64,000 nucleotides of DNA from Jannaschia faecimaris (GTDB lineage Bacteria; Pseudomonadota; Alphaproteobacteria; Rhodobacterales; Rhodobacteraceae). The stretch spans positions 186,001 to 250,000 of the forward strand of contig NZ_FNPX01000004.1 of assembly GCF_900107415.1 (NCBI RefSeq), written 5' to 3'. Positions 11,083-28,426 of this stretch are shown in pieces (positions within the stretch are counted from its first letter, which is position 1; the number at the start of each line of letters is the position of its first letter). A program made the position numbers and the translations under genes. The notes beneath the pieces were generated by a model. That model saw only the letters and a program-made list of their open reading frames with translations. It had not been told where the DNA came from and did not search any database.

Positions 11083-11775
11083 TTAGTAGCTGCGGATTAA
11101 ACCAACCAACCGACCCTGCACCTGCACCTGATCGTCACGCATGAGTTGTGTCTGATAGGCTTGGTTCGCAGCCTCCAGCGCAATCATGCCATTGGTGCGG
11201 CGATAGCGTTTCAGCGTCGCTTCGTGACCCTCAACGAGCGCCACAACAATCTCGCCATTTTCAGCGGTGGTCTGTTCACGGATCACGACGATATCGCCGT
11301 CATTGATCCCTGCGTCGATCATCGAGTCGCCCCGGACTTCCAGGGCATAGTGCTCCCCTCCGCGGTCAAGCATCTGACCGGGTACCGCAACATGGTGTGA
11401 AACTTCGCTGATCGCGTCGATGGGAACACCGGCGGCAATTCGGCCCATGACGGGAACTTCGGTTGCATGGGCTTCGACCGACATTGCCCGCGCGGGTGCC
11501 GGTGCCTGGGGGGCGGACCCTTCGATCACTTGCGGTACGAAGTTCGCGCCGGCTGCCAGATCTTCGGGAAGGCGGGTAATCTCTATCGCGCGCGCCCGGT
11601 GGGCCAGCCGCCGAATGAAGCCCCGCTCCTCCAGCGCCGTGATCAAGCGGTGAATGCCGGACTTCGACCGCAGGTCGAGCGCATCCTTCATCTCGTCGAA
11701 GGAGGGCGGGACACCATCCCGTTGCACGCGCTTGTGGATGAAGGCGAGAAGATCGCGCTGCTTGCGGGTGAGCAT
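11083..11775 (-). CDS. lexA: LexA repressor, SOS regulator
   Basis: Represses SOS genes and is inactivated by RecA-stimulated self-cleavage. The start at 11775 gives [13 protein letters not shown], the normal N-terminus, and 230 residues. An upstream in-frame Met (11805) adds only atypical residues. A winged helix (residues 1-70) is followed by the cleavage site Ala115-Gly116 (RIAAGVPI), the catalytic Ser151 in GDSMIDAG and Lys189 in ATLKRY. An alphaproteobacterial SOS box lies 49 bases upstream, so it is autoregulated. It is the last gene after moeA on this strand, but the box indicates a separate promoter. Confidence 0.98.
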
Positions 11776-11823
11776 GTCCAGGTCCCTCGATTGTCTGCAC
11801 TCCAAACGGAGCTGTCACGGAAT

Positions 11824-11838
11824 GTTCTAGTAAGGTTC
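11824..11838. promoter_or_regulatory. SOS box (LexA operator) of lexA
   Basis: GTTC at 11824-11827 and GTTC at 11835-11838 are separated by exactly 7 bases, the direct-repeat LexA operator known from alphaproteobacteria. It sits between the end of moeA and the start of lexA. Confidence 0.9.
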
Positions 11839-22079: not shown

Positions 22080-22790
22080 GTGATGCGAATTCTGCTCGTC
22101 GAAGACGATCCGACTACGTCCAAGAGCATCGAAATGATGCTTGGAAGCGCCAACCTGAATGTTTACTCCACCGACATGGGTGAGGAAGGCATCGACTTGG
22201 CCAAGCTGTATGACTACGATCTCATACTTCTTGACCTGAATCTGCCGGACATCAACGGGCACGACGTGCTCAAGCAACTGCGGATGAGCCGGATCGAGAC
22301 TCCCATCCTCATCCTATCTGGCTCTGACGATACCGAAAACAAGATTCGCGGTTTCGGCGTTGGTGCCGATGACTACATGACCAAGCCGTTTCACCGGGAT
22401 GAGTTGATCGCCCGGATCCACGCGATTGTACGCCGCTCCAAGGGGCACTCACAATCTGTTATCCGTACCGGGCAGGTCGCCGTGAATCTCGACGCCAAAT
22501 CGGTGGAGGTTGACGGGCGCGGCGTGCATCTGACCGGCAAGGAATATCAGATGCTGGAGCTTCTATCCCTGCGCAAGGGCACCACGCTCACGAAGGAGAT
22601 GTTTCTTAATCATCTCTACGGCGGCATGGACGAGCCGGAGCTTAAGATCATCGATGTATTCATCTGCAAGTTGCGAAAGAAGCTGTCTGTTGCCACGGGC
22701 GGCGAGACCCACATCGAGACCGTCTGGGGCCGCGGCTATGTCCTTCGTGACCCCGAAGGCAGCAGGAATGCGGATCTTATGCAGGCCTGA
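22080..22790 (+). CDS. ctrA: Cell-cycle response regulator CtrA
   Basis: OmpR-class response regulator that in alphaproteobacteria controls motility, cell-cycle genes and, in Rhodobacter, gene transfer agent production and DNA uptake. The 236-residue product has a receiver domain with acidic residues EDD at 7-9, phospho-acceptor Asp51 ([10 protein letters not shown]) and the conserved KPFHRDEL. The winged helix follows, ending [26 protein letters not shown] precedes the ATG. It follows sciP. Confidence 0.97.
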
Positions 22791-22817
22791 TTGACCGCGC
22801 GACTGGATCAAGACAAC

Positions 22818-22846
22818 GGCGGGCGGTGCAGATCGTCCGCCTCTTT
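22818..22846 (+). terminator. Possible terminator after ctrA
   Basis: GGCGGGC (22818-22824) can pair with GTCCGCC (22835-22841), with one G-U pair, followed by TCTTTC. It lies 28 bases after the ctrA stop. The T run is short, so this is tentative. Confidence 0.4.
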
Positions 22847-22926
22847 CGTGTCTGATCGACAGTGTTCGGCCGGAATCGGTGGAAAGGAACCGGGTGTCGC
22901 CCTATCACCTGCTGGTATGAGGATGA

Positions 22927-27263
<4,337 letters not shown>

Positions 27264-27290
27264 GTCCAATAAGGGGAACAAATGCGGTTT

Positions 27291-27315
27291 GTTCTCAAAT
27301 GTTCTAATAAAGTTC
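27291..27315. promoter_or_regulatory. SOS box (three LexA half-sites) upstream of a miniprotein gene
   Basis: GTTC at 27301-27304 and GTTC at 27312-27315 are separated by exactly 7 bases (TAATAAA), matching the LexA operator seen before lexA in this window. A third GTTC at 27291-27294 is 6 bases further upstream. The site is 64 bases before a small gene with a strong ribosome-binding site and overlaps AT-rich sequence suited to a promoter. Confidence 0.85.
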
Positions 27316-27378
27316 TTTACTTTTCCCGTGCGGGGTGAGAACAAAGAGACAACAAGAGCAGCAACAGGAGGTCCGACA

Positions 27379-27504
27379 ATGACCCGCAAGATCAAGAACG
27401 CCGTCACCCGGATCGAAAATGCCCCGCTGACCGATATTCTAGGTGGTGTATGGCTTGTGACCCTGATGCTGAGCTTGATGCACCTTCCGTCGCTCATCGT
27501 TTGA
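27379..27504 (+). CDS. SOS-controlled 41-residue membrane miniprotein
   Basis: A 41-residue protein, unannotated in function. The ATG at 27379 has a near-perfect Shine-Dalgarno (AGGAGGT) at good spacing. Residues 1-16 (MTRKIKNAVTRIENAP) are basic and amphipathic. Residues about 17-41 form one hydrophobic helix (ILGGVWLVTLMLSLMHLP), so a single-pass inner-membrane topology with a cytosolic basic N-terminus is likely. A LexA operator lies upstream. By size, topology and regulation it resembles Caulobacter SidA, an SOS-induced division inhibitor, but I see no sequence match I can claim. A toxin of the TisB type is the alternative. The reading frame could begin further upstream at 27289, which I reject since it would cover the operator. 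Confidence 0.75.
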   Translation: MTRKIKNAVTRIENAPLTDILGGVWLVTLMLSLMHLPSLIV

Positions 27505-27970
27505 GAGGATTTTCCTGACCGCGTTCCTGCGCGGCACCCGTTTTACAGTTACTGCCTGCATATCTTCGCTTGATGCCGTTTGCGCGCCTCCCCATGCGCG
27601 CGGCGGCGGTCGCCGCCTTCGTCCCCTTGGCTGCGACTAGGCCCGATCCGTTCCGCCCCGAACATCGGCCGCTGCCCAACGAGCCAAGTATGCCACTTCG
27701 CCGCCACCTCCGCCCAACGGAGTGTGGCGGTTTTTTTGTCTTCCCAATTTTCTGACTTCGGCGCGCCAGGCATTCGAACGTCTCACCATCACTGTGCAGA
27801 AACCGGTGCCCGCCGTCATGACCCCCATGCCGCCTTGTTCAACGCCCCTGAACCGTTCGGCAAAGCGCCAATCGCCTCGGCGGTTTGCTATGCCCGCGCT
27901 GCGGGCCGGGCCGGTCGCGAGCTGCGCACGGCTTCGAAATCGCGGCTTGATCCGCCATCAGGCAGGGGAT
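27505..27970. other. Non-coding stretch between the miniprotein and the NifU-like gene
   Basis: About 466 bases with no convincing protein gene on either strand. It contains a GC-rich inverted repeat (about 27601-27617), the strong terminator at 27701-27737 and, at 27765-27790, a tRNA-3'-end-like fragment. The rest shows no ribosome-binding site, codon bias or known RNA motif that I could recognise. The first 200 bases may be the 3' untranslated region of the recG-miniprotein transcripts or a separate small RNA. Confidence 0.5.
27701..27737 (+). terminator. Strong Rho-independent terminator
   Basis: CCGCCAC-CTCCG (27701-27712) pairs with CGGAG-(T)-GTGGCGG (27718-27730) around the loop CCCAA, followed at once by seven T residues. 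It ends transcripts coming from recG and the SOS miniprotein, about 200 bases after the latter's stop. Confidence 0.9.
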
Positions 27971-28426
27971 CTACCGGTCCGTCAGTTCCGTCGCCGTGAC
28001 CTGCTCCAGAGCTTCGACCGTCGCATCCAGCGCCAGCAGGATCGACGCATGACGGTTTTTGAAGTCGCGGGCCGGGGTCAGCACCTCAAGACCGTCAAAG
28101 GGGGCGTCGGGTACCGGCCCGTCGGCTTTCAGCATCGCGCGCAATTGGTCGCGGGCACGGCGCACTTCGTCCAAGTCGCGCCCGATCATTGCGGCCCCCG
28201 ATACCGCGGCCGAGGCCTGGCCGAGCGCACAGGCCTTGACGTCCTGCGCATAGTGCACGATCCGCCCGTCTTCCGCATCCAGCGATACCGTCACCGTAGA
28301 GCCGCACAAAGGCGAGCGTTTGCGCACCGTCACCTGCGGCGAGTCGAGCGGCGCTGTCGCCGGCATGTCCGCAGCCAATGCCAAAATGCGGCCGGAGTAG
28401 AGCTTGATCAGATCATTGTCGGGCAT
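27971..28426 (-). CDS. NifU-like iron-sulfur cluster assembly scaffold protein
   Basis: A 151-residue protein of the NifU N-terminal/IscU-like fold in its Rhodobacterales form. It has two of the conserved Cys positions (SPLCGSTV near residue 41 and KACALGQASAAV near residue 70); the third position is not a Cys in the usual context, so cluster building is less certain. AGGAAAG precedes the ATG. It is divergent from hisI with 60-70 bases between the starts. Confidence 0.85.
   Translation of the reverse strand: MPDNDLIKLYSGRILALAADMPATAPLDSPQVTVRKRSPLCGSTVTVSLDAEDGRIVHYAQDVKACALGQASAAVSGAAMIGRDLDEVRRARDQLRAMLKADGPVPDAPFDGLEVLTPARDFKNRHASILLALDATVEALEQVTATELTDR

Follow-up and report, generated by a model that had tools for sequence, protein, structure and literature searches.

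In a 64,000-nucleotide stretch of the Jannaschia faecimaris genome (hereafter the window), a 41-codon gene lies directly behind recG, and comparative sequence analysis gives good support to its being an undescribed SOS effector conserved beside recG. The original prediction had suggested such an effector, and the suggestion holds on frame conservation, operator, synteny, the predicted helix and absence from family libraries. The best explanation of its role, which we put forward by analogy and with moderate confidence, is that of an SOS-induced inhibitor of cell division that resembles Caulobacter SidA and acts on the FtsW/FtsI machinery. We infer that the product, here called the miniprotein, is a small SOS-induced membrane inhibitor like those already known, without shown homology to them.

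The miniprotein gene and its SOS promoter

The gene runs from an ATG at 27379 to a TGA at 27502-27504 and encodes a product of 41 aa, MTRKIKNAVTRIENAPLTDILGGVWLVTLMLSLMHLPSLIV. The features of the window on which the analysis relies are as follows.

25179..27263, + strand: recG (NF008164, 1082.7 bits; Pfam); ends 37 nt 5' of operator 1
27291..27294, + strand: third GTTC half-site, 10 nt upstream of operator 1
27301..27315, + strand: LexA operator 1, GTTCTAATAAAGTTC, GTTC-N7-GTTC; matrix rank 1 in the window
27316..27321, + strand: -35-like TTTACT abutting operator 1; presumed assignment, from TTTAC/TTGAC conservation
27339..27353, - strand: putative operator 2, inverted and LexA-like, reading GAACAAAGAGACAAC on the + strand; over the presumed -10/start; matrix rank 3
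27366..27372, + strand: Shine-Dalgarno AGGAGGT, 6 nt 5' of the ATG (from sequence)
27379..27504, + strand: miniprotein gene, 41 codons plus TGA (ORF, family conservation, purifying selection in the genus)
27433..27498, + strand: codons 19-40, the hydrophobic stretch that starts at the conserved Asp and reaches Ile40 (hydropathy, family columns, AlphaFold helix)
27219..27497, - strand: opposite-strand frame overlapping the miniprotein gene (ORF)
27700..27738, + strand: intrinsic terminator, hairpin 27700-27731 plus T7 (-24.4 kcal/mol, z -5.5)
11083..11805, - strand: lexA, the presumed repressor, frame start approximate (TIGR00498, 189 bits; Pfam)
11824..11838, - strand: lexA operator, GAACCTTACTAGAAC in gene orientation (from sequence)

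The original prediction named a 41-codon gene with a near-perfect AGGAGGT, preceded by GTTC-N7-GTTC and a third GTTC, and each of these elements was found (27379-27504, 27366-27372, 27301-27315 and 27291-27294, respectively). It also described the box as the same LexA operator that precedes lexA; the motif is indeed shared, but its orientation differs: read in the direction of lexA it is GAAC-N7-GAAC, opposite to the miniprotein's GTTC-N7-GTTC. The second, inverted LexA-like block at 27339-27353 had gone unnoticed.

In the window, ctrA (NF045991), ligA, recG and the miniprotein gene follow one another in a block spanning 22080-27504, and an SOS-type gene is thus found close to a cell-cycle regulator gene. 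The terminator, which was not picked up by a pattern scanner, lies about 200 nt past the miniprotein stop codon. The convergent gene further downstream (27971-28426, - strand) matches a SufU scaffold model at 44.5 bits, below the cut-off of 92.5. No Rfam match was obtained at E<=0.5 between 27200 and 28000, and the miniprotein has a single match in its own genome.

It should be noted that one exact GTTC-N7-GTTC is not beyond chance. The window holds 5 against 2.2 expected, a count reached by 12 of 100 shuffles, and GTTCT-N6-GTTC occurs 21 times in the genome, below the 37 occurrences of a reversed-pattern control. Hence, weight was placed on conservation and on a matrix built from other promoters. 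Conservation was read at 137 recG-linked loci, namely the window, 28 loci from BLAST, 19 from the genus, 59 from profile matches and 30 from genomes with weak or negative profile results. The exact box is present at 130 of the 137 loci, and at 106 of 107 once the profile-weak group is set aside. Among these 130 loci, the third GTTC lies upstream in 103 (at exactly 10 nt in 99 and at 11 nt in 4), and operator 1 is directly followed by TTTAC in 101 and by TTGAC in 12. An inverted GAAC is found in 128 of the 130, placed 23 nt past the second GTTC in 99; the tetramer 7 nt beyond it is the imperfect CAAC in 104 loci and GAAC in 5, giving GAAC-N7-(C/G)AAC in 109 of 130.

The LexA matrix was derived from 43 sites (30 from recA and 13 from lexA) and contains no miniprotein sites. 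When every position of the window was scored on both strands, the site at 27301 ranked first, the lexA site second and the block at 27339 third; the lexA and recA sites of this genome were themselves part of the training set, so an independent rank is available just for the two miniprotein sites. Across the family the median scores of these two sites, 13.4 and 9.8, are below the 23.7 of the training sites. As a control, recA carries GAAC-N7-GAAC in 30 of 30 profile-positive family genomes examined, 17 of these sites reading GAACAAGAGGYGAAC, and the exact GAAC-N7-GAAC precedes lexA in 13 of the 17 upstream regions read (of 21 loci). Membership of the miniprotein gene in the LexA (SOS) regulon through operator 1 is therefore well supported by sequence conservation, and the promoter carries what are putatively two facing LexA operators, the second lying over the presumed -10/start. 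A consensus scanner returned no sigma-70 promoter here, and the -35 and -10 positions are our own assignment.

Several further details of these promoters were seen. Upstream of recA in the same genome (L350, G000:C42 near 97650), two LexA-type sites, GTTCCAATTTTGTTC and GAACAATACATGAAC, face each other at a distance of 14 nt, and both orientations were found upstream of recA in only 1 of 30 genomes. Four loci from diverged genera (L168, L174, L176 and L186) show GTTC-N7-GTTC-N7-GTTC in 11-nt steps, and an additional GTTC is present at -20 in 27 of 128 loci. Between the LexA blocks (the region 27320-27337 in the window), 32 of 130 loci contain GTTAA, which resembles a CtrA half-site; these are too few for a CtrA site to be claimed.

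Distribution, selection and linkage to recG

A search with the miniprotein alone matched 134 of 295 family genomes (one per genus) at E<=1. Profile A1, built from the 29 miniproteins of the best BLAST loci directly behind recG, matched 260 of the same 295 genomes at E<=0.1 and 244 at E<=1e-4. Likewise, the profile was positive in 20 of 20 genomes of the genus and, at E<=0.01, in 184 of 195 genomes of an order-level draw, all of them from the same family; 9 of the 11 misses belong to a single genus. Among 385 genomes drawn class-wide there were 5 strong matches, every one in the window's family, and 25 weak ones (E 0.003-0.09) mostly inside long frames, the best of which (E 0.003) lies within a long frame that contains a stop.

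The frame is free of stops in all 20 genus matches, so that within the genus the gene withstands the check on frame-breaking changes which the original prediction had named as a ground for rejecting it; elsewhere, one copy (L123) ends early, after ALHL. Among 18 of the 20 genus sequences, 151 of 153 pairs had pN below pS, with a mean of 0.23 for pN and 0.57 for pS. The whole-family set gave pN below pS in 6960 of 7503 pairs (means 0.43 vs 0.66), and family pairs selected for pS<0.5 (n=634) showed no clear difference (0.41 vs 0.45), so the genus comparison alone is taken as evidence of selection. On these data it is well supported that the 41-codon frame is a real protein-coding gene under purifying selection within the genus. 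Alternatively, the operator could control a noncoding or regulatory RNA, the frame being there by accident. Such a reading would account for the conserved promoter and for a terminator some 200 nt past the stop codon, but we regard it as very improbable given the pN<pS pattern in the genus, the absence of internal stops there, the protein profile matches in 244 of 295 genomes and the lack of an Rfam match.

In 29 of the best 30 BLAST loci, a set that contains the window's own, a frame of 38-43 residues follows recG directly and has GTTC-N7-GTTC upstream of it; the remaining match (L028, in genome G029) has neither recG nor the box and was rejected as spurious. The best 80 of 175 named relatives, which include Ruegeria, Phaeobacter, Leisingera, Sulfitobacter, Shimia, Rhodovulum and Frigidibacter, show recG upstream and in the same orientation in every case, with the exact box in 78, the third half-site in 74 and the inverted block in 76. 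The arrangement behind recG is absent from all 27 recG loci of other families that were read, these being the best-matching ones among 205 genomes in which RecG was matched. Two of the 27 have an exact GTTC or GAAC pair and three a small hydrophobic frame, and no locus has both. From these loci and the lack of a strong class-wide match outside the family, the miniprotein and its promoter element appear to be confined to the window's family.

The linkage has exceptions within the family. For example, one locus (L125, genome G108), kept apart from the 137 recG-linked loci for lack of recG, has an intact gene and a full promoter with no recG within 1.2 kb upstream, which indicates that the unit can stand apart from recG. 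In one draft genome (L141, G182) the recG frame appears broken near its end, either truly or through an assembly error, whereas the promoter and the miniprotein gene that follow are intact. Profile-weak or negative results were followed in 43 genomes, 7 of them from the order-level draw and 20 from the 35 profile-negative family genomes; a recG locus could be placed in 36 of the 43, and 30 loci were read. An absent profile match had been considered to mean a missing element, and this proved wrong: 24 of the 30 loci keep the exact operator, and 22 have a frame by motif search, often short and diverged. Six lack the exact box. Three of these (L172, L177 and L193) have a degenerate promoter with a frame, and the other three (L185, L191 and L197) have neither promoter nor frame just behind recG, which suggests that the miniprotein is not indispensable. 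Loss of LexA was also considered as a cause of miniprotein loss and rejected as a general one, with lexA matched in 20 of the 23 genomes tested (3 of the 23 being positive controls); it is possible for the three genomes without a match (G029, G008 and G033), all profile-negative and two of them incomplete. In one genus (g24: L179, L180, L184, L187 and L188) the miniprotein appears to be reduced to about 31 residues with putative starts, the SOS promoter being retained, and 3 of the 5 short products end in LWLPAILQ plus one residue.

The window protein has no Pfam or NCBIfam match at E<=10 and no PDB match at E<=1. Searches of the 29 members against Pfam, NCBIfam, PHROGs and PADLOC gave weak matches of single members, the best at E 0.0029 to an unnamed PHROG. 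No homologue was found in phages or plasmids, and of 8 stretches of viral contigs that fit a pattern none was confirmed. We found no description of the gene in the open-access literature, subscription journals and supplements being outside the scope of the survey; for instance, an in silico LexA survey of Dinoroseobacter lists other targets, and the word recG is absent from its accessible text (PMC6473078).

A conserved helix face and the proposed inhibition of division

The miniprotein is predicted to be a single membrane helix with a basic N-terminus. AlphaFold, run on the single sequence, models one helix over residues 3-40 (mean pLDDT 82.6). The N-terminal segment is basic and amphipathic (moment 0.68 over residues 2-15), with a mean net charge of +1.2 ahead of a conserved Asp in 29 aligned members; 28 of these have no D, E, K or R between this Asp and the last Pro, and only 2-6 residues follow that Pro. 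The helix of the window protein has a moment of about 0.06. In a set of 123 sequences (of the 137 loci, 12 were not recovered, and L114, in the wrong frame, and L123, for its early end, were dropped), the conserved positions are D19 (120 D, 3 E), G22 (120), L26 (113), L30 (91), L34 (117) and P37 (118). Part of this conservation stems from the motif search, in which D, G and position 26 were constrained and charged residues in the helix were disallowed; L34 and P37 were otherwise free to vary. In the 29-row alignment, made without the motif constraint, D19, G22, L26 and P37 are invariant. The periodicity of conservation along the helix has its maximum at 100 degrees per residue (p 0.022 by permutation). 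One-sided conservation on a largely uncharged helix suggests that the face formed by D19, G22, L26, L30, L34 and P37 docks onto a membrane partner, more than that it lines a pore.

These properties can be assembled into a conditional scheme. In the undamaged cell, LexA would shut the miniprotein promoter at the two facing operators that bracket the -35 and -10/start, and upon damage RecA would trigger LexA cleavage and allow the miniprotein to be made. By the positive-inside rule a basic N-terminus is expected on the cytoplasmic side; the N-terminus of the miniprotein would stay there as its helix inserts into the inner membrane. The conserved face might then dock on a polytopic target and hold it inactive, so that division is delayed until repair is complete; the septal wall synthase FtsW/FtsI(/FtsN) would be the likeliest candidate. 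The FtsW-type target and the division block are inferred by analogy with SidA and YneA. SulA (PF03846), for which the E. coli control was positive, was found in 0 of 120 family genomes, the window's own included. Zero detectable homology to any known inhibitor counts against the reading as a division inhibitor. The YneA helix is reported to bind TM7 of FtsW, and by itself to bind FtsW without blocking division (accessible text of PMC13396833); a helix-only protein need not inhibit, yet the very small SidA does. The same source models ChiZ, SosA and SidA on FtsW, the models not being of high confidence (PMC13396833, as accessible).

The original prediction offered a SidA-like inhibitor or an SOS toxin, and the former stands as the best functional guess, by analogy, while the toxin fits less well. 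A toxin of the TisB kind would insert into the membrane, dissipate the proton-motive force and drive dormancy, and the SOS promoter with its two putative operators, the small size and the basic amphipathic N-terminus are all compatible with it. TisB-like peptides bear charges along the helix, whereas 28 of 29 members are uncharged from D to P and the window helix has almost no moment; the conserved D/G/L/P face takes the place of an amphipathic pore face, and no Rfam match lies in 27200-28000 at E<=0.5, although novel RNAs are possible. We therefore consider a toxin unlikely. An equally low probability is given to an SOS regulator directed at a different membrane system, for example the CckA/CtrA phosphorelay or the release of gene transfer agents, through which damaged cells would differentiate. 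Such a regulator would suit a gene within a ctrA-ligA-recG block and a helix face that says only that some membrane partner exists, and the cckA promoter of Rhodobacter capsulatus is reported to be freed when LexA is cleaved, with effects on CtrA-regulated traits (accessible text of PMC6473078). The ctrA neighbourhood, however, is known from this window alone, and the target is conjectural. To the more specific form of this idea, a new class of SOS effector in most of the family that works as a helix-only membrane ligand of a signalling or export machine, e.g., CckA and not FtsW, we assign a slightly lower probability still. Were it true, damage would switch the cell programme (division and gene-transfer-agent output) by direct helix binding, and the position behind ctrA-ligA-recG would be functional.

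Tight linkage across the family would also be expected of a recG accessory or membrane repair factor with no effect on division. This is doubtful, and we rank it below the readings just discussed, because the gene has its own SOS-type promoter past the recG stop and, in the window, its own terminator, because the 27 recG loci of other families lack the miniprotein, and because the L125 gene is intact and has its full promoter with no recG in the 1.2 kb upstream of it.

Both the marine roseobacters and the Rhodobacter species that serve as models for photosynthesis and for gene transfer agents belong to the Rhodobacteraceae, a family in which we know of no named SOS division inhibitor. For the preferred reading, as an inhibitor of division, the miniprotein is a concrete candidate whose conserved promoter and defined predicted interaction face make the question of SOS control of division testable. 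Its divergence across the family may allow the partner surface to be mapped by covariation.

Comparison with known systems

TisB-type toxins are likewise short, SOS-controlled and membrane-bound. The miniprotein differs from them in its mostly uncharged helix with one conserved face and in having no known RNA family nearby. E. coli SulA is an SOS-induced division inhibitor that acts on FtsZ, according to the accessible text of PMC13396833, and is unmatched in 120 of 120 family genomes. The same text describes YneA, ChiZ and SosA (of Bacillus subtilis, Mycobacterium tuberculosis and Staphylococcus aureus) as SOS-induced membrane division inhibitors. A LysM domain is present in YneA and ChiZ, and SosA has an extended helix, whereas the miniprotein has 2-6 residues past its last Pro; no LysM domain stands behind the helix of the 41-aa window protein (no Pfam match at E<=10). 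Caulobacter DidA, as described in the accessible part of PMC4211646, is small with one predicted helix, like the miniprotein, and is a damage-induced division inhibitor tied to FtsW/I/N. At 71 aa, however, DidA is SOS-independent and activated by DriD, in contrast to the LexA-type operator of the miniprotein. SidA and the miniprotein can be compared by description. The profile has no strong match beyond the family in 385 class-wide genomes. According to the accessible text of PMC4211646, SidA is an alphaproteobacterial inner-membrane protein of 29 aa that is controlled by LexA and stops Caulobacter division at FtsW. The miniprotein shares the alphaproteobacterial setting and SidA-like traits, namely a length of about 30-40 aa, a single predicted membrane helix and a LexA operator.
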